The notes under the pieces are model-generated. The model saw nothing but the letters and a program-made list of their open reading frames with translations, was not told the origin of the DNA and did not search any database. From assembly GCA_027019335.1 (NCBI GenBank), contig JALUWV010000093.1, forward strand, positions 1 through 36,207: a stretch of DNA of 36,207 nt. Reading direction: 5' to 3'. Position numbers and translations under genes: made by a program. The DNA is from Sulfurimonas sp. GTDB lineage: Bacteria > Campylobacterota > Campylobacteria > Campylobacterales > Sulfurimonadaceae. The first letter of the stretch is position 1. Every line of letters begins with the position of its first letter. This document shows, in pieces, positions 18,559-27,886 of this stretch.

Positions 18559-18566
18559 GTCTTCGC
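18549..18566. terminator. Stem-loop between convergent rhlE and the DUF748 gene
   Basis: GCGAAGA (18549-18555) and TCTTCGC (18560-18566) form a perfect 7-bp stem with a TAAG loop. The loop contains the rhlE TAA, and the right arm ends on the first base of the DUF748 stop codon. No T-tract follows on either strand, so it is a weak intrinsic terminator at best and may instead protect the 3' ends. Confidence 0.4.
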
Positions 18567-21500
18567 TACTTCACATCTACATGAAGCCCAATTCTCACAA
18601 AATTATTGGAAGAATTGGCTTCTTTTTTCATCTTTTGTATCACAACTCTTGATTTTTTAATGGATTTTTCTTCGATAAGGTATTTTTGTATGGTACTTGC
18701 TCTTGTTTGGGCTAATGCTTTGAGTTCTTTGTCCGAAACAGTTTGTATCTTGATACAGCGTTTGAGAAGTTCATTGAAATACTTCTCTTTGTACTGCTCA
18801 TGCAATGCACTCAAATCAACATCTTTTTTTGCCTCACTATAAATAGACTCAAGCATATCTACATTCATCGCATTTTGATGCTCTTTTTCATTGCTTATAC
18901 CACTTTTTTTCATGACAAGATGAATAAGTTTCTGTTTTTTGAGTGCTTTTTTATCTATTTGTTCATCATAAAGTGGTGTAATATCTAAGACTAACTTCGG
19001 TTTTTTTCGCATCATTTTCACGATATTATCAAGTTTTTCGCGTTGAGTTGGGCTGATTTTAGCACTTCCACCTTCAAACTCGACATATTCAAGGGCATCA
19101 CTATCTAGCCCCATAAGTGAACCTAAAAATCGAAATGGAGAGCTAACAGCACGTACAATTAAGTTTGAAAATGTTTTCCAAACTAAGGCACCATATTTAA
19201 AATCAGGGTTATCGAGGTCTCCTTGTACTGGCATATCAATGTCGATGATGCCATCACTATTTTCAAGTAGTCCAATCACAAAACCTAAAGGAAGTTTAGT
19301 AACATTCTCATCACTATTTTCTTTACCTAATTGAATATGTTTAATCATAATGTTATTTTTGCCAAGCAGTTGCGAGTTTTGAATCTTATAACCTAAGTCC
19401 AAAAAGAGTTTCCCTTTCTCTATCTGATAGCCAGCAAATTTTGCACTATAGCCACTTAAAGAGTGTAAGGCAAGATTTTTAAAATTGAAATGCAAGTCTG
19501 TAAACTCTTTTGGATTTGCACTTTTTATACTTCCTTTGAGCTTTGTAGAACCATACGCATCGACTTCACCATCAATGTCTACAAATGTTGTTTCATTGGC
19601 ATCATTTGAGATAGCATAAATGGTGCCGACTAAACCATGTATATCTGTTTTAAATTGTATAGGGATTGATAAATCTGCAAATTTTGCATTGCCTTCAACA
19701 ATGTTCACTTTTGCAATTTTGATAGGAAATTGTGTTGTATTTGTGTCTTGACTTGTATTGACATCACTTTTTTTAAGAAGTTTTGCAAAATTCATCTTTT
19801 TTTGCTTGTCCACAAGGGCATCAATATAAAAAGATTTTAAAGTGACTTGGTCAACATAGAGTCGATTGGGGTTATACTCAAAAGTAAATTTACTGACATT
19901 CACATCGTTAATAGAAAAAACAGAAGCATCTGTTCTACTATCGTTCAAGAAAAAATCTTCTAAGCCAATACTCCCTTGCACTTGTAAGTCTGCTTTTGTT
20001 TTAGAAGCATCATACTCAGTGCTTGCATTGACAAAGAGTTTGCCATCAGCTACTTTTATAAATGCTTTTTTTTGTACATAGGGTGTCAGGTTTGTGAGTC
20101 CGAGATGTGAGAGCTGTAGGCTTCCTTTTTCTTTGAGGGGAGTATGTCTGAGTTTTCCCTTTGCTCTGAGTTTCCCTTTGAAATTGATACGCGAAGAGAG
20201 CTTGTAAGATAACCATGTACGGCGTTTGCTATCAATGTGATACAGATGAAGGTTTATCTTATCTACAGTATTGAGAGTACTCGGTGAAAGGGTTCTATCT
20301 CGAAATCTTACTTTTGCATTGTAGATAGCAAAATGTTTGATAGAAGCTTCAAAAGCTTTCTCTTTTTTCTTTGTTTTGAGCTGTGGTTTTGATTTTTTTG
20401 GCACAATAAGATTTTCAAGATTAAGCACTCCTTTTTTGTTTAAAAGGGCATTTATTTGTGGGCTAACGAAAGCAACTTTACCAATAGTGAGCTTTTTGTG
20501 GGAGAGGTCAAAAGATAATTTGGAAACATTGAGTGCATGCAGAGAGAGCAAAGTTTTTCGACTCCAACGTTTGCTTATGCGTAGTTTCTGTACACTTACA
20601 TTTGTATCACTTACTTGCAGGAGTATTTTTTTCTTTTCTTTTGTGAGGTCGAGTGTTGTGTCGAGAGAGAGTGTAGCACTTCGTAATTTGACATTGTAAA
20701 CTTTGAGTGCATCTTTAGCCATACTATCGAGGTAAGGGCGGTAATGCACAAGATTAAAATTTTTACATTGCAAGTGTGTATGAACATCTAAAACTTTTTG
20801 TTGAATGAGACCTTGTGCTTGACACTCTAAGGAGTCATTTAAACGGAGAAAAACTGTATAATCAAAAGGTTTTTCTCCCGCTAACGTAATATCTTTTGCA
20901 GAGATATTTAAAGTGTCGAGTTTTGTTGTGACATTTGGCGAGATACCATTGTCCTCGAAATTAGCTGAGATGTTTTTTAACTCTAAATCTTTGAGCAGAA
21001 CACTCCAAGGTTTTTGTCGTGGAGCCGTTTGTGCAATGCTCGTTTTTTTCGTTTCTTTTTTGTTGAGTTTGAGGTAGTGGAGTAAATCTATCTGCTCTTT
21101 TGCATTACGTTTTGCATCTAAATGCAAAGTATCTAAAGTGATTTTGTCTATTTGTACATCTTGTGCAAATGGTTTTACACTTGCATTTTGTAGTGTAAAA
21201 TTATGAAGAGTTACAATGTCTTGATGTCCATTTTTTGGGATGATTCGTAATTTGTCAATCTTTAATCCAATTTTATCCGCGAGTGTTGCATTTATATCAT
21301 CTGCATTGAAATGAAAATGAGCATTGAAAGAGACTTTTCCATCAGCCACTTCAAAATTGAGCATATCCTTGATATATTTCCAAGGGGTATAGAGTTTGTT
21401 TGCTTGGAGTGAGAGATGACCATCAATGACTAAGGGCGTAATGCTTTTGAGCTCAGTTTGCATTTGGAAGTTTCCGCCATCGCCTAAACCTGTATAAAAA

Positions 21501-22057
21501 TTCAAGTGTGTTGCATTAGAATCCATGTTATTTGTATCGAGATTTTCTAATACAAAATAAATATTATGAAAATCAAAAGCAAATTTTTCTTTTTTTGTAT
21601 TATCCTGATAAGCTACATTTCCATCAAGTAGTTTTATCTTATCTATAATGATTCGTGGAAGATGTAGGGGTTTACTTGGATTCTTCTGTGCTTGAGTCTC
21701 TTTTAAAATTCCTAAAAGATTGAGCTTTTTCTCTTGAGAGAGTGCGAGAAAGAGTTCTGGCTTGTCAAGTAAAATATTTTTTATATGAACCGTTTTGGCA
21801 AACAAAGAGTATAACTCAAGGTTTAAAGAAAATGTTTTGAACTGTATAAGAGGGGTATTTGCCTTATCTGTGAGTTGAAGATTATGGAATTTGAGTTTAA
21901 AAAGAAAGGGGTTAAAATAGATACTTTCTATATGCACTTTTGCATTTGTTTCTTGTGCGACAAGTTTTATAATTTGTGATTTTGCAAGCCATGGAAGAAC
22001 AAAAAACCCAACGACTGCATAGAGCAGTAGCAGGAGAAATAGTATTTTTTTGAACAA
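18566..22057 (-). CDS. Large AsmA-like DUF748 envelope protein
   Basis: The 1163-residue protein has one N-terminal membrane anchor (ILFLLLLLYAVVGFFVLPWLA, about 4-24) and a very long, beta-rich periplasmic part. Early segments such as VHIESIYFNPFLFKLKFHNLQL and FKTFSLNLELYSLF are typical of DUF748. The C-terminal part contains PVQGDLDNPDFKYGALVWKTFSNLIVRAVSSPFRFLGSLMG in outline, another hallmark, followed by a charged helical end. AsmA-like proteins are thought to move phospholipids or support outer membrane assembly; the specific role of this family is not established. The start is TTG at 22055-22057, supported by GGAG exactly 7 nt upstream; the nearby ATG is out of frame. It lies 58 bp downstream of ccoG. 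Confidence 0.88.
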   Translation of the reverse strand: MFKKILFLLLLLYAVVGFFVLPWLAKSQIIKLVAQETNAKVHIESIYFNPFLFKLKFHNLQLTDKANTPLIQFKTFSLNLELYSLFAKTVHIKNILLDKPELFLALSQEKKLNLLGILKETQAQKNPSKPLHLPRIIIDKIKLLDGNVAYQDNTKKEKFAFDFHNIYFVLENLDTNNMDSNATHLNFYTGLGDGGNFQMQTELKSITPLVIDGHLSLQANKLYTPWKYIKDMLNFEVADGKVSFNAHFHFNADDINATLADKIGLKIDKLRIIPKNGHQDIVTLHNFTLQNASVKPFAQDVQIDKITLDTLHLDAKRNAKEQIDLLHYLKLNKKETKKTSIAQTAPRQKPWSVLLKDLELKNISANFEDNGISPNVTTKLDTLNISAKDITLAGEKPFDYTVFLRLNDSLECQAQGLIQQKVLDVHTHLQCKNFNLVHYRPYLDSMAKDALKVYNVKLRSATLSLDTTLDLTKEKKKILLQVSDTNVSVQKLRISKRWSRKTLLSLHALNVSKLSFDLSHKKLTIGKVAFVSPQINALLNKKGVLNLENLIVPKKSKPQLKTKKKEKAFEASIKHFAIYNAKVRFRDRTLSPSTLNTVDKINLHLYHIDSKRRTWLSYKLSSRINFKGKLRAKGKLRHTPLKEKGSLQLSHLGLTNLTPYVQKKAFIKVADGKLFVNASTEYDASKTKADLQVQGSIGLEDFFLNDSRTDASVFSINDVNVSKFTFEYNPNRLYVDQVTLKSFYIDALVDKQKKMNFAKLLKKSDVNTSQDTNTTQFPIKIAKVNIVEGNAKFADLSIPIQFKTDIHGLVGTIYAISNDANETTFVDIDGEVDAYGSTKLKGSIKSANPKEFTDLHFNFKNLALHSLSGYSAKFAGYQIEKGKLFLDLGYKIQNSQLLGKNNIMIKHIQLGKENSDENVTKLPLGFVIGLLENSDGIIDIDMPVQGDLDNPDFKYGALVWKTFSNLIVRAVSSPFRFLGSLMGLDSDALEYVEFEGGSAKISPTQREKLDNIVKMMRKKPKLVLDITPLYDEQIDKKALKKQKLIHLVMKKSGISNEKEHQNAMNVDMLESIYSEAKKDVDLSALHEQYKEKYFNELLKRCIKIQTVSDKELKALAQTRASTIQKYLIEEKSIKKSRVVIQKMKKEANSSNNFVRIGLHVDVK

Positions 22058-22115: not shown

Positions 22116-23561
22116 TTATTTCAGTTTATCTATAACACTCTTTTTTGGATAAACAAATGTCGCCTTACGAATAACAGAAATTTTTTCACTTCTTTTTCCA
22201 TCTGCATCGAGTGCATAAGCATGAATGACGATAGGGATAATAGTATCTTTTCTATCATTACTCACAAGTACATCCGTTGTTCTAAGTGTAACAATTTTTT
22301 TCTTTTTCACCCCTGGATTTGCATTAAATGGTTTAGATGGTTTCACAATTATTATTTTTCCGTTGATTCCTTTTGGTGGGATAACTTCAAAATAAAACTT
22401 CATTTTTTTGTTCTCAGTATTTTGGAGTAAAAATACATACGAGTTATCAACTCTCACTTTGCCTTCAGCAATATGTTTCACTGAGTACATACGAGTTTCT
22501 TTGTTAATGTTTAGAAGCATATGCTCTTTTGTACCACCCATAAACCCAAGAACAATAGAGATTCCGACGAGGAGTGCCACATATGCTAAAACTTTTGGAC
22601 GGAAATATTTTGTTTTTCCTTTCTGATCGATGATTTCATAATCACTTGACCAAGTCACAAGAGAAGGTTTTCCAAGTTTACCCATAACAGTTGTACAAGC
22701 ATCCACACACTCTAAACAGTTAATACACTCAAGTTGTAAACCTTTACGAATATCAATATGTGTTGGACAAACTGTTACACATGATTCACAAGTCGTACAC
22801 TCTGCAGCAGGCTCAAAAGCTTGTAAGTCTTTTTGTTTTGTGAATTTTTTATTATGGTTTTCATCATAGATATCGCCCCCTCTATGTGTATCATAAAGTG
22901 CCATAACTGTATGTTCATCATAGAGTACTGATTGGACACGAGAGTAAGGACAAACATATGCACAAAAGTTTTCTTTTAAAAATGCAATATCATAGATGAG
23001 GAAAAGAGCGACAGCAAGCACAGTTCCTATCAGTGTCCAGTGATTTGCATAATCTGCAAGGTAAGGGAAAAAATCTTCAGGAGGGACAAAAAACCATAAA
23101 AAGTCAGATGCTGCAATAAGAGAGATGACTGTTACCATCATTAAAGCGATGACACGTTTTACTTTGTTCTCTGCTTTTGTCATATCTGGTTCTTTTTGTT
23201 TGTTTTTAATGCGTTTGCGCATTTTAAGAATCTTTGTTTCGATTAAATCACGATAGATAACACGAAACAGTGTTTGCGGACAGACCCAACCACAAAACAC
23301 ACGCCCTCCAACAACAGTCATTCCAAAAATGGTTAAGAACATGAGCATGAGTAAAAAAGGCATCAAATATAATTGTTGCATATCAAATTGAACAAAAGCT
23401 AAGTGTAGTTTGAGTTTATCAAAACTTAAAAGGAAGAAGTGATTTCCATTGTATGTAATCCATGGAAGGACAAGGGTAAAGATGGTTGCAAATGTAAACA
23501 TATAATAACGCTTATATCTCCACGGCATCGGTATCTTTATAGATTTTTTCTCTGTACTCAT
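22116..23561 (-). CDS. ccoG: Cytochrome c oxidase accessory protein CcoG (FixG/RdxA)
   Basis: CcoG is a membrane iron-sulphur protein that handles copper for maturation of the cbb3-type cytochrome oxidase. The 481 residues include several membrane helices, the Cys pairs GGRVFCGWVCPQ and ENFCAYVCPYSR, and a ferredoxin-like region CTTCESCVTVCPTHI plus CINCLECVDACTTVMGK with eight cysteines in CxxCxxCxxxC spacing. The C-terminal 140 residues form the periplasmic Ig-like FixG domain. The cbb3 oxidase genes themselves are not in the window. The start codon overlaps the stop of the upstream recombinase-like gene as TAATG. Confidence 0.95.
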   Translation of the reverse strand: MSTEKKSIKIPMPWRYKRYYMFTFATIFTLVLPWITYNGNHFFLLSFDKLKLHLAFVQFDMQQLYLMPFLLMLMFLTIFGMTVVGGRVFCGWVCPQTLFRVIYRDLIETKILKMRKRIKNKQKEPDMTKAENKVKRVIALMMVTVISLIAASDFLWFFVPPEDFFPYLADYANHWTLIGTVLAVALFLIYDIAFLKENFCAYVCPYSRVQSVLYDEHTVMALYDTHRGGDIYDENHNKKFTKQKDLQAFEPAAECTTCESCVTVCPTHIDIRKGLQLECINCLECVDACTTVMGKLGKPSLVTWSSDYEIIDQKGKTKYFRPKVLAYVALLVGISIVLGFMGGTKEHMLLNINKETRMYSVKHIAEGKVRVDNSYVFLLQNTENKKMKFYFEVIPPKGINGKIIIVKPSKPFNANPGVKKKKIVTLRTTDVLVSNDRKDTIIPIVIHAYALDADGKRSEKISVIRKATFVYPKKSVIDKLK

Positions 23562-24214
23562 TATTTTTTCTCCGTTGTTGGTTTTGGGCAGGCAATACTG
23601 TTTATCACATCATCTTCTGCATCTTTGGATGTTTTTTGGACTAAAGATTTAAAAGCAACTTGCTTTAACTCTCTTGAATCAATATAATCTTTTATAGAGC
23701 TTCTACTCACACCTAGTAAACGTGCGATTTCACTCACATTTTTCTTTTCATGTAGATACTGTAATATTTCACCTACATACTGGTCAAATTTTGAGTTTGA
23801 TTGACTCCCTTTTGGTCGGCCAATAAACTTTTGCGACTCTTCTTCTAACTCTTGTCGAAGTTTGTCTATCAAACCTAAAGCGAGCATTCCGCTACTTTCT
23901 CGTGTTATTATAACAGATTTTTTTATAAAATGTACCTTTATTTCATGTTTGAGTAAACAACGAAACATTTGTACTAAATCTTGTATATTTGTGCTTAGTA
24001 CCCAGATATCATAGACAAGAAGTGTTGCACCTTCGTGTGAATGAAAATAGTTTGTTACATCGGGTCTTTGAGATAAGGGCTTATTTTGTGAAGTATAATC
24101 AATGAACTCATCATCCACTGTAATACCGTTGGCAAGAGTATAAGCATTTATGTTTTTTAACTGTTCACCTGCTGTATCAAACTGTTTATCTGGACGTATA
24201 TAGGCAATTGTCAT
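23561..24214 (-). CDS. Serine-recombinase-like DNA-binding protein lacking catalytic residues
   Basis: The 217-residue protein has the layout of a resolvase/invertase: an N-terminal catalytic-type fold (about 1-130), a linker helix, GRPKGSQSNSKFDQYVGEI, and a C-terminal helix-turn-helix VSEIARLLGVSRSSIKDYIDSREL. The active site is gone. The YxRVS motif reads YIRPD, so the nucleophilic Ser is replaced. The usual LDRLxR segment reads IWVLST, losing the Asp and both Arg. It therefore probably binds DNA without recombining it and may act as a regulator. It has its own promoter and is coupled to ccoG by a one-base stop/start overlap, so ccoG and redox or copper status are candidate targets. The role is inferred. 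Confidence 0.8.
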   Translation of the reverse strand: MTIAYIRPDKQFDTAGEQLKNINAYTLANGITVDDEFIDYTSQNKPLSQRPDVTNYFHSHEGATLLVYDIWVLSTNIQDLVQMFRCLLKHEIKVHFIKKSVIITRESSGMLALGLIDKLRQELEEESQKFIGRPKGSQSNSKFDQYVGEILQYLHEKKNVSEIARLLGVSRSSIKDYIDSRELKQVAFKSLVQKTSKDAEDDVINSIACPKPTTEKK

Positions 24215-24250
24215 GACGGATAAACCTCTCTTTTTTTGATTTTCATCGCT

Positions 24251-24280
24251 ATTATATCTTTATTTGATGATTAAAGTCAA
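24251..24280 (-). promoter_or_regulatory. Promoter of the recombinase-like gene and ccoG
   Basis: On the minus strand TTGACT (24275-24280) and a perfect TATAAT (24251-24256) are 18 bp apart. The start codon lies 36 bp downstream of the -10 box, with AGAGAGG as a possible ribosome binding site. Confidence 0.7.
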
Positions 24281-24367
24281 TACTATTTGTAATATATTCG
24301 TCATATTTTAGTAGTGTGCTTCATTTAACAGCTCTTTTTATGTTCTCTTTAGATAAAATAACTTCCA

Positions 24368-24394: not shown

Positions 24395-27300
24395 ATGACA
24401 ACAAAACAGTATATACTTCAAACCATTCAAAAACGTCCGCTCATTATTGATGGAGCAATGGGTACACAACTCCAACAACGTGATGATCAAATTCCTCTTG
24501 AAGCTTGGGAAGGCAATGAAGGGTGTAATGAACTCCTCAACGTCACAGCTCCTGACATTATGGAAGAGATATTTAATGCTTACTTAACTGCAGGCGCAGA
24601 CTTTATCACAACCAATACCTTTGGCTCTTTTTCTTGGGTTTTAGATGAGTATGACATCGGACATCGTGCGTATGAGCTTACAAAAGCAGGTGCCGAGATT
24701 GTCAAAAAAGCGTGTCAAAAGTACTCAACTCCAGAACATCCGCGTTTTTGTTTAGGTTCTATTGGTCCAGGGACAAAACTTCCCTCTTTAGGACATATTA
24801 CGTATGACAAAATGTTTGAAGGCTACACCGAGGCTTGTCTTGCCCTCATAGATGGAGGTGTGGATATTTTCTTGATTGAAACAGCACAAGACCCCCTCCA
24901 AATTAAAGCAGCGCTGCATGCTATGGAAGCTGCAAATGAGCAAAGAGGAGTAGATATTCCCATCATGATTTCTGTAACTATTGAACTCAGTGGAACAATG
25001 CTTATCGGAACAGATGCGGAGACGATAGCGACTATTTTGGAGCCTTTTGATAACATTTTGAGTTTAGGATTTAACTGTGGAACAGGACCACAGCAAGTCT
25101 TAAAACATGTGAAAACTTTAAGTGAACTTTGGGGAAAACCAATCTCTGTACACTCAAACGCAGGACTCCCACAAAACAGAGGGGGCTACACCTACTACCC
25201 AATGGGACCCGATGAGTTTGTAGCACAACAAGAGAAATTTTTGGACTACGATGGTGTAAGTTTTCTTGGCGGATGCTGTGGTACAACCCCACAACACATC
25301 CGCGCCCTTGTAAACAAAGTAAGCTCCGTACAACCAAAAGCACCCTCAGGCTCCCATCCAAACGCCATCGCTTCGCTTTTTAACACCGTACCACTCATGC
25401 AAGAACCCGCACCTCTTTTAGTAGGGGAGCGTTCAAACGCAACAGGCTCAAAAGCATTTCGAGAACTTCTTTTAGCAGAGAACTACGAAGGGACACTCAG
25501 TGTCGCGCAACAACAAGTTCGAGCAGGGGCGCATGTGGTTGATGTCAATGTTGGTTTTGCAGGTCGTGATGAAACAAAAGATATGACTGAAGTCATGGCA
25601 ATGTATGCACAAAAAATCGCCCTCCCTCTCATGCCCGATTCTACACAAACAAAAGGACTCGAAACAGCTCTCAAATACATCGGAGGAAAAGCTATCTTAA
25701 ACTCTGTCAATCTTGAAGATGGAGAGGGAAAGTTTGATGATGTCTGTCGTCTGGCGAAAAAATTTGGGGCAAGTTTAGTCTGTCTGACTATTGATGAAGT
25801 AGGCATGGCAAAAAGTGTAGAGGACAAACTCAAAGTAGCCGACCGTATCATCGACCTTGCTACAAATCGACATGGTATTCGTAAGGAGAACTTAGTTTTT
25901 GATGTTTTAACCTTTACCTTAGGTTCAGGAGATGAAGAGTACTTTGAAGCAGGGATAAACACCATCGAAGCCATCCGACAACTTCGTATAAAACACCCAG
26001 AAGTTGGGGCAATTTTAGGGCTTTCAAACATCTCTTTTGGTCTGGATAAAGATGCACGACCATACTTAAACTCTATGTTTTTACACCACTGTGTGCAAGC
26101 AGGACTCACTTCTGTTATCATCAATGTAAAACATATCATTCCACTCAATAAAATTCCAGAAGAAGACCAAAAAATCTGTGATGACCTCATTTTTAACCGA
26201 TTGCCAAATGGGGAAGCACTCTTTGCGTTTATAGAGCATTTTTCCTCTAAAGAAGCGGTCGATAATGATGCCGTCGATGAAGCATACTTAGCAATGAGTG
26301 ATGAAGAAAAGATTGCAAAACTTTTAATGGATGGCGATAAAGATCGCATGATTCCTCTTGTCGAAGAGGCACGCCACACAATTGCTCCTGAAATCATTGT
26401 CAATGAGATTTTGATTGATGCGATGAAAGTCGTTGGAGAACTCTTTGGTTCTGGACAAATGCAACTCCCTTTTGTCCTCCAATCTGCCGAGACTATGAAA
26501 AAAACAGTTGACCATCTCAACCCCTACTTACCAAAAGTAGAAAAAGAGGTCGATACAACTTTAGCTTTAGGAACAGTCAAAGGCGATGTCCATGATGTAG
26601 GGAAAAATCTTGTGGATATCATCCTCTCAAACAATGGCTATAAAGTCAAAAACCTTGGGATTAAAGTTGAACTCGATCGTTTTTTAGAAACTATGAAAGA
26701 AGGGCATATCTCTGCACTTGGCATGAGTGGATTACTTGTAAAATCAACACAAGTGATGCTTGAAAATCTCAATACCTTAAAAGAGAAAGATATAAAAATC
26801 CCTATCCTTTTAGGTGGTGCCGCACTTACACGTGCATTTATTGATGATTTTTGTCGTCCTGCGTATGATGGACCTATCTTCTACTGTAAAGATGCGTTTG
26901 ATGGGGTCACGGCTATGAGTCGGATTGAAGCTGGGAACTTTGACACGAACCTCCATCCTGATGCCCCTGTGGTAGAGAGAGTGGAGAAAAAAGAGGTCAT
27001 CATTCCTCCTTTTGAAGAACTTACTATGCCAAACCGAGACATCCCAATTCCTATTCCACCTTTTTGGGGAAGACGAGAAATCAAACTGACTACACAGCAA
27101 ATAGAGATGGCATTTGAGTGGATAAATCATAAGATTTTGTTTAAATCGCGTTGGGGTTATAGCTCTAAAGGTATGAAAAAAGAGGCTTACCAAAAGCAAC
27201 TCGATGAGGTCGTGTGGCCTGCCTATGAAAAACTCAAAAAGCAGTTTTTAGAAGAGAAACTCTTTGAACCGACTATCATTTATGGCTATTGGCCATGTCG

Positions 27301-27886
27301 TAGTGATGATAATAAGCTACTTATCTTTAAAGAAGAAGAGGGCTTTAATGCCATCGGTGAAATCAATAAAGAACCGCTTGAAGTAAGAAGAAATGCAAGT
27401 TATAAAGAGTTCTCATTTCCAAGACAGCGCAAAAAACCGCACCGTGCTTTGAGTGACTTTTTTCAGAGTGAGCATGATGACATTATCGCCTTGACTTGTG
27501 TGAGTGCGGGTGCAAAACTGAGTGAAGTGGAACATGAGATTTATGAGCAAGGGAACTATACGGAGTATTATCAGTTTCATGGTTTAGGGGTAGAACTCGC
27601 AGAAGCCCTAGCTGAGATTGCGCATAAGCAAATCAGACTCGATTTAAACATTGCACAAGGGGAAAAACCCACATTGGCAGATGTTCAGATGAATAAATAT
27701 CAAGGAAGCCGTTACTCATTTGGCTACGCTGCTTGTCCTGACCTAGAGTTAAATCGTCCACTTTTTGATTTACTTAAACCTGAGGACTTTGGGATTGAGC
27801 TGAGTGAGACCTTTCAGATTCATCCTGAACAGTCTACATCAGCATTGGTCGTTTACCATCCAAACGCAACATATTATAATGTATAA
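24395..27886 (+). CDS. metH: Cobalamin-dependent methionine synthase
   Basis: It transfers the methyl group of methyltetrahydrofolate to homocysteine through methylcobalamin. The 1163 residues cover all four modules: the homocysteine domain starting IIDGAMGTQLQ with zinc-site Cys in LGFNCGTGP and GGCCGTTP; the pterin domain from about residue 340 (VGERSNATGSKAFR); the B12 domain with the cobalt-ligand His733 in GDVHDVGKN; and a C-terminal reactivation domain with SRYSFGYAACPDL. It is slightly shorter than the Escherichia coli protein (1227). It is probably co-transcribed with the permease 9 bp downstream. Confidence 0.97.
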   Translation: MTTKQYILQTIQKRPLIIDGAMGTQLQQRDDQIPLEAWEGNEGCNELLNVTAPDIMEEIFNAYLTAGADFITTNTFGSFSWVLDEYDIGHRAYELTKAGAEIVKKACQKYSTPEHPRFCLGSIGPGTKLPSLGHITYDKMFEGYTEACLALIDGGVDIFLIETAQDPLQIKAALHAMEAANEQRGVDIPIMISVTIELSGTMLIGTDAETIATILEPFDNILSLGFNCGTGPQQVLKHVKTLSELWGKPISVHSNAGLPQNRGGYTYYPMGPDEFVAQQEKFLDYDGVSFLGGCCGTTPQHIRALVNKVSSVQPKAPSGSHPNAIASLFNTVPLMQEPAPLLVGERSNATGSKAFRELLLAENYEGTLSVAQQQVRAGAHVVDVNVGFAGRDETKDMTEVMAMYAQKIALPLMPDSTQTKGLETALKYIGGKAILNSVNLEDGEGKFDDVCRLAKKFGASLVCLTIDEVGMAKSVEDKLKVADRIIDLATNRHGIRKENLVFDVLTFTLGSGDEEYFEAGINTIEAIRQLRIKHPEVGAILGLSNISFGLDKDARPYLNSMFLHHCVQAGLTSVIINVKHIIPLNKIPEEDQKICDDLIFNRLPNGEALFAFIEHFSSKEAVDNDAVDEAYLAMSDEEKIAKLLMDGDKDRMIPLVEEARHTIAPEIIVNEILIDAMKVVGELFGSGQMQLPFVLQSAETMKKTVDHLNPYLPKVEKEVDTTLALGTVKGDVHDVGKNLVDIILSNNGYKVKNLGIKVELDRFLETMKEGHISALGMSGLLVKSTQVMLENLNTLKEKDIKIPILLGGAALTRAFIDDFCRPAYDGPIFYCKDAFDGVTAMSRIEAGNFDTNLHPDAPVVERVEKKEVIIPPFEELTMPNRDIPIPIPPFWGRREIKLTTQQIEMAFEWINHKILFKSRWGYSSKGMKKEAYQKQLDEVVWPAYEKLKKQFLEEKLFEPTIIYGYWPCRSDDNKLLIFKEEEGFNAIGEINKEPLEVRRNASYKEFSFPRQRKKPHRALSDFFQSEHDDIIALTCVSAGAKLSEVEHEIYEQGNYTEYYQFHGLGVELAEALAEIAHKQIRLDLNIAQGEKPTLADVQMNKYQGSRYSFGYAACPDLELNRPLFDLLKPEDFGIELSETFQIHPEQSTSALVVYHPNATYYNV

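Follow-up and report, generated by a model that had tools for sequence, protein, structure and literature searches.

A catalytically dead serine recombinase linked to ccoG appears to serve as a regulator in Campylobacterales

Many sulfur-oxidising relatives of Campylobacter retain a dead serine recombinase, which appears to function as a regulator. The member studied here is encoded directly upstream of ccoG on a Sulfurimonas contig, analysed as one stretch of 36,207 nucleotides (the window). Judged by sequence comparison, this domesticated recombinase is probably a transcription factor that regulates itself as well as terminal-oxidase and copper genes, acting through a putative operator. Open-licence papers were searched for a resolvase linked to ccoG in Sulfurimonas and for serine recombinases that serve as regulators in an inactive state; this turned up no account of the family. 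The original prediction had recognised the dead recombinase and its coupling to ccoG and had missed the operator, the regulon and a conserved Cys pair. New here is the candidate operator of the regulator–ccoG unit, which recurs at unlinked genes.

Gene organization and domain structure

The locus comprises the following genes:

22116..23561, minus strand: ccoG (cytochrome c oxidase accessory protein/cupric reductase), one transcription unit with the regulator
23561..24214, minus strand: catalytically dead serine-recombinase-fold regulator, 217 aa, identified by a Pfam Resolvase match above cut-off and an alignment of 53 homologues; resolvase-like domain at residues ~1–122, GRPKG arm and helix-turn-helix (HTH) at 132–185, Cys86 and Cys209
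24395..27886, plus strand: metH (methionine synthase), divergent neighbour in most Sulfurimonas, with no sign of regulation

The regulator matches Pfam Resolvase (PF00239) over residues 3–122 with 36.2 bits (cut-off 23.3), as well as the gamma-delta resolvase structures 1gdt and 1zr2. This match and the YIRPD motif described below bear out the earlier proposal of a serine-recombinase relative without a catalytic Ser. The best NCBIfam match, over residues 1–184, is the Mpi family serine-type recombinase (NF009949); at 42.8 bits the regulator falls short of the cut-off of 272 and, unlike the Mpi master invertase, is catalytically dead. A structure prediction from two input sequences reached a pLDDT of 41 and was left out of the evidence. 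A contig scan for relatives returned a single close match, and the nearest named relative was a Sulfurimonas MAG (84% identical). The ccoG product was identified by TIGR02745 (436 bits, cut-off 316.7). As predicted, the regulator stop and the ccoG start share one base (TAATG), and one-base overlaps recur at other loci.

Active-site losses define a dead enzyme

Aligned to gamma-delta resolvase, the regulator reads YIRPD at the catalytic motif, with Asp at position 9 as the counterpart of Ser10. The LDRLGR motif is replaced by IWVLST, so that D67, R68 and R71 correspond to W71, V72 and T75. The original prediction of lost Ser, Asp and both Arg was correct as to their absence, but the Asp is uninformative, because most active invertases of the order have Ser, not Asp, at the D67 position. 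The same active Campylobacterales invertases carry YxRVS and both Arg (positions 72 and 75) in 12 of 12 cases. The diagnostic losses are those of Ser9 and of both these Arg. A regained catalytic Ser was looked for in 53 aligned distinct homologues and found in none (0/53 with Ser at position 9).

The prediction had overlooked that other active-site residues are retained: R7 (R8 of gamma-delta) in 51/53 homologues, Q18 (Q19) in 52/53, and R50 in 53/53, the equivalence of R50 to R45 depending on the alignment. The window protein thus combines a serine-recombinase N-terminal domain and the R8, Q19 and R45 equivalents with the absence of the catalytic Ser and the R68/R71 equivalents.

The regulators form one conserved clade

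A profile search covered 259 Campylobacterales genomes that are at least 90% complete, with the window's own genome added. Family members, defined by at least 150 bits, occur in 107 of the 259 genomes, in at least ten families; the remaining listed matches score below 77 bits, in the range of ordinary invertases. ccoG itself was detected in 234 of the 259. In an unrooted maximum-likelihood tree with a few long branches, the 53 homologues form one clade (support 100/100) apart from the 12 active YxRVS invertases. A single ancient loss is therefore the simplest reading, and the dead regulator belongs to one ancient Campylobacterales clade.

Residues G132, R133, P134, S139, S141, D144, S161, R171, S173, D176, S180 and R181 are invariant in all 53 proteins. 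By this measure the DNA-binding domain (GRP arm and HTH) is the most strongly constrained part of the protein. One broken copy was found (G156).

A second degenerate serine-recombinase group occurs in family f9 (L031, L187, L188, L189, L190 and also L185), with YxRVN for YxRVS and LNVFGRT for LDRLGR, both conserved within f9. No f9 member with a listed ccoG position adjoins ccoG, and the group is apparently independent of the ccoG-linked clade.

Linkage to ccoG holds across families

Among members for which both coordinates are listed, 69 of 72 sit immediately upstream of ccoG, in the same orientation. The exceptions are G075, with a frameshifted adjacent ccoG, G146, whose contig ends before any ccoG is reached, and G052 (L030). 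Among the family loci that were read, 57 of 59 adjoin ccoG, across ten family codes (57 of 61 if the two non-members L031 and L032 are counted); the others are L044, at a contig end, and the divergent L030. The linkage proposed for the window is nearly universal in the family. L030 (G052:C144) is not beside ccoG and has lost both Cys; it keeps the HTH and an exact operator. In G075, the regulator is intact next to the frameshifted ccoG, and an intact ccoG copy lies within ccoNOQP. Its survival there suggests that the regulator acts in trans.

Some f4 and f18 genomes carry a second, near-identical ccoG closing ccoNOQP, the other copy standing behind the dead recombinase. The pairs L063/L064, L065/L066, L069/L070, L071/L072 and L075/L076 are 97.7–100% identical over ~1.41–1.44 kb. 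Identity stops at the ORF ends, which fits gene conversion, the apparent origin of these paired copies. The duplication was also considered as a product of the regulator; this was dropped, the second copy being the ordinary ccoG that ends ccoNOQP. In G167:C1, three ccoG copies (1108913, 1219930 and 1330947; L067, L068) lie exactly 111,017 bp apart, representing either a ccoG-bounded tandem 111-kb repeat or an assembly artefact.

A candidate operator overlaps the regulator–ccoG promoter

Upstream of the regulator, promoter elements and candidate operators are interleaved:

24275..24280, minus strand: -35 hexamer TTGACT, aligned in homologues
24251..24256, minus strand: -10 hexamer TATAAT, 18-bp spacer, aligned in homologues
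24265..24303, minus strand: candidate operator O1, TGACGA-N27-TCATCA (one mismatch), which covers the -35 and some of the spacer
24214..24251, minus strand: degenerate second candidate operator O2, TAGCGA-N26-CCGTCA, which begins at the -10 and reaches the start codon

The promoter had been predicted (TTGACT-18-TATAAT, 24280–24251) and is both real and conserved across homologues: across families, a TTGAC -35 and a TATAAT-like -10 stand in fixed geometry with the half-sites. The candidate operator consists of inverted TGACGA half-sites 26–28 bp apart and overlaps the core promoter of the regulator–ccoG unit. It is present in nearly all homologous promoters, across families, and O1 is the sole match with at most one mismatch in the whole 36-kb window. 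From TGACGA to TCGTCA, start to start, the distance is 33 bp in most members, 32 bp in f4 and L023, and 34 bp in part of f18. Extra direct half-sites recur every 20–21 bp in some f4 and f6 members. The second operator of Sulfurimonas is of equal size, lies 52 bp further downstream and ends at the ribosome-binding site (RBS) or start codon; O2 is better preserved, as TGACGA-N27-TCGTTA, in other Sulfurimonas (G060:C1:1977349, G109:C52:91527 and G070:C5:21896).

In ccoG promoters of genomes without the regulator, no site within one mismatch was found (first 21 genomes scored). In GC-richer genomes the bare pattern TGACGA-N26/27-TCGTCA lacks selectivity, and we therefore counted only recurring matches in AT-rich promoters.

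Some lineages show shifted half-sites, on both sides in L025 (TGGCGA/TCGCCA) and on one side in f18 (TCGCCA or CCGCCA). The corresponding proteins have Arg instead of Lys at residue 175 of the recognition helix, and five of the six Arg175 members are shifted, the f18 cases coming from few, related genomes. This covariation is just suggestive, because the Arg175 member L028 keeps TCGTCA.

The operator recurs at unlinked genes

An M48-metallopeptidase operon promoter carries a site with at most two mismatches in 16 of 20 regulator-positive Sulfurimonadaceae and in none of ten regulator-negative ones, where the best sites have three mismatches, like shuffles; the genomes are related, and these counts are not independent. 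The window's own genome (G000, 84% complete) has an exact site with an N26 spacer at this promoter (G000:C20:18517). Outside Sulfurimonadaceae the site is absent from all 28 M48 loci, and an order-wide M48 target was rejected. The operon encodes a small membrane protein, the M48 protease, PrmC and a DUF4149 protein. Its first gene (L097–L124; G000:C20), between operator and M48, specifies an unannotated but conserved single-helix membrane protein of 62–69 residues (EPxLExIxDYxTLKGEKK...IPVK) for which there is no Pfam match. In most of these genomes the operator ends 41–42 bp ahead of a -10-like hexamer, with no consensus -35, a placement that suggests activator-type geometry.

Sites also precede the cytochrome bd genes cydAB in six genomes of three families: with at most one mismatch at DUF4492-cydAB in G126, G193, G249 and G061, and exactly at rhodanese-cydAB in G205 and G258. 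These operators overlap the core promoter or start region, which points to repressor-type geometry. In G249, a further exact site lies between a TonB receptor gene and tandem NosL genes; the receptor most resembles the copper-receptor model TIGR01778, with a score under the cut-off. The regulon varies between genomes: the M48 target is confined to Sulfurimonadaceae and the TonB/NosL site to one genome. A general copper-receptor regulon is unsupported, the operator being found at the TonB receptor in one of ~70 genomes and degenerate in its sister.

Exact matches in f6 and f20 mostly have spacers of mixed composition, and these were set aside as chance-like (flanking genes were seen for L219 only). 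Single-genome matches at L087:5012 (G060), L088:4990 (G016) and L089:4994 (G258) lie near genes for DUF6858, a SLAC1-family channel and a sulfide:quinone-reductase-like protein, which are possible further targets. Separately, the window encodes at 18566–22057 (minus strand) a 1163-aa protein, possibly an AsmA/DUF748-type membrane protein, whose N-terminus resembles the protein adjoining the M48 operon in G070 (L090).

A conserved Cys pair suggests a signal

Of the 53 members, 52 have both Cys86 and Cys209, the latter within a C-terminal Cys-Pro, and 37 contain exactly two Cys. None of the 12 aligned active invertases has Cys209, nor is Cys among the residues listed for them at column 86; a Cys of the active invertases L193 and L198, considered as a counterpart of Cys86, falls one column off. 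The pair is not needed for the remaining role of L030, which lost both Cys yet kept HTH and operator.

Cytochrome bd has no copper requirement. CcoG acts as a cupric reductase in the biogenesis of cbb3 oxidase (PMC8267372). Together with the invariant Cys pair, these properties make copper or thiol-redox sensing a natural hypothesis, in which Cys86 and Cys209 would read out copper or the thiol redox state as the signal. Sensors of the CueR type share an invariant Cys pair and a copper-linked partner gene but have another fold; in the regulator the two Cys are 123 residues apart and a metal role is hypothetical.

Relation to known systems

With serine invertases and resolvases (gamma-delta/Tn3 resolvase, Hin/Gin and Mpi), the regulator shares a resolvase-like N-terminal domain, a C-terminal GRP arm with HTH, and inverted half-sites. 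Unlike them, it lacks the catalytic Ser and the R68/R71 equivalents, carries a C-terminal Cys-Pro tail, and is tied to ccoG and to promoter operators; active serine invertases and resolvases may autoregulate too. The region before its HTH is ~12–16 columns shorter than in the outside relative L031. Mobile-element-derived regulators such as Ner/SfsB likewise represent mobile-element DNA-binding proteins turned host regulators (PMC8987985). An excerpt of that article gives Xre and RHH examples, cites serine recombinases as invertases, resolvases or integrases only, and names no dead serine recombinase as a regulator.

Proposed function and alternative explanations

The proposed ancestor is a Campylobacterales serine DNA invertase. 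Its catalytic Ser, together with two Arg of the active site, would have been lost a single time, ahead of the order's split into families. The recombinase-type N-terminal domain would have been kept, presumably still as a dimer, together with the GRP-arm/HTH domain, which we infer to bind the inverted TGACGA half-sites 26–28 bp apart. The regulator–ccoG unit itself is most likely repressed, because the operator covers the core promoter and, in Sulfurimonas, also the region from +1 to the RBS. Elsewhere the protein would control lineage-specific targets, among them cydAB with repressor geometry and the Sulfurimonadaceae M48 operon with activator geometry.

That the TGACGA operator belongs to another regulator, with the dead recombinase a co-regulated passenger of the ccoG unit, is unlikely. 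Recombinase–operator binding is deduced from sequence, and the operator also occurs at loci without a recombinase gene nearby, as this explanation would have it; however, the unlinked M48 sites are confined to recombinase-bearing genomes, the operator accompanies the recombinase promoter in every family, L030 with no adjacent ccoG included, and conservation within the protein is highest in the HTH.

The retained resolvase domain with R7, Q18 and R50 would also suit an architectural or partner subunit that pairs in trans with an active invertase or holds DNA sites. Some genomes of the order do carry active invertases, and the f4 arrays of direct TGACGA half-sites, 20–21 bp apart, resemble resolvase accessory sites. 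We regard this as quite improbable, since no other Resolvase-family protein was found in the window's 84%-complete genome and the sites lie at promoters, in constant position relative to the -35 and -10. The gone catalytic residues and the broken G156 copy might finally be taken for a functionless, decaying invertase relic beside ccoG by chance, but conservation refutes this: the open frame, invariant HTH, linkage across ten families and conserved operator make it extremely improbable.

The domesticated transcription factor remains the favoured explanation. The regulator has the conserved DNA-binding domain expected of a dedicated factor, and the operator is found at its own and at unlinked promoters, co-occurring with the gene. 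The original prediction had cast the protein as a recombinase turned transcription factor, possibly for oxidase assembly or copper handling; neither the search for a regained Ser nor that for missing ccoG linkage overturned this, and it gains support from the operator at its own promoter, at unlinked cydAB and at one TonB copper-receptor-like/NosL pair. A more specific version is tentative and rather doubtful: a dual-mode factor that senses copper or redox state through the Cys pair, represses its own CcoG unit and the copper-free bd oxidase, and activates the membrane-protease operon.

Discussion

For decades, serine recombinases have served as a model of site-specific recombination. A conserved clade that traded catalysis for sequence-specific binding would illustrate how a mobile-element enzyme becomes a transcription factor, and the defined operator makes direct tests simple. 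For the environmentally dominant Sulfurimonas and their relatives, the protein is a candidate for controlling the assembly of cbb3 oxidase, the bd oxidase and copper genes. Were the dual-mode reading true, terminal oxidases would be coordinated with copper supply across Campylobacterales.
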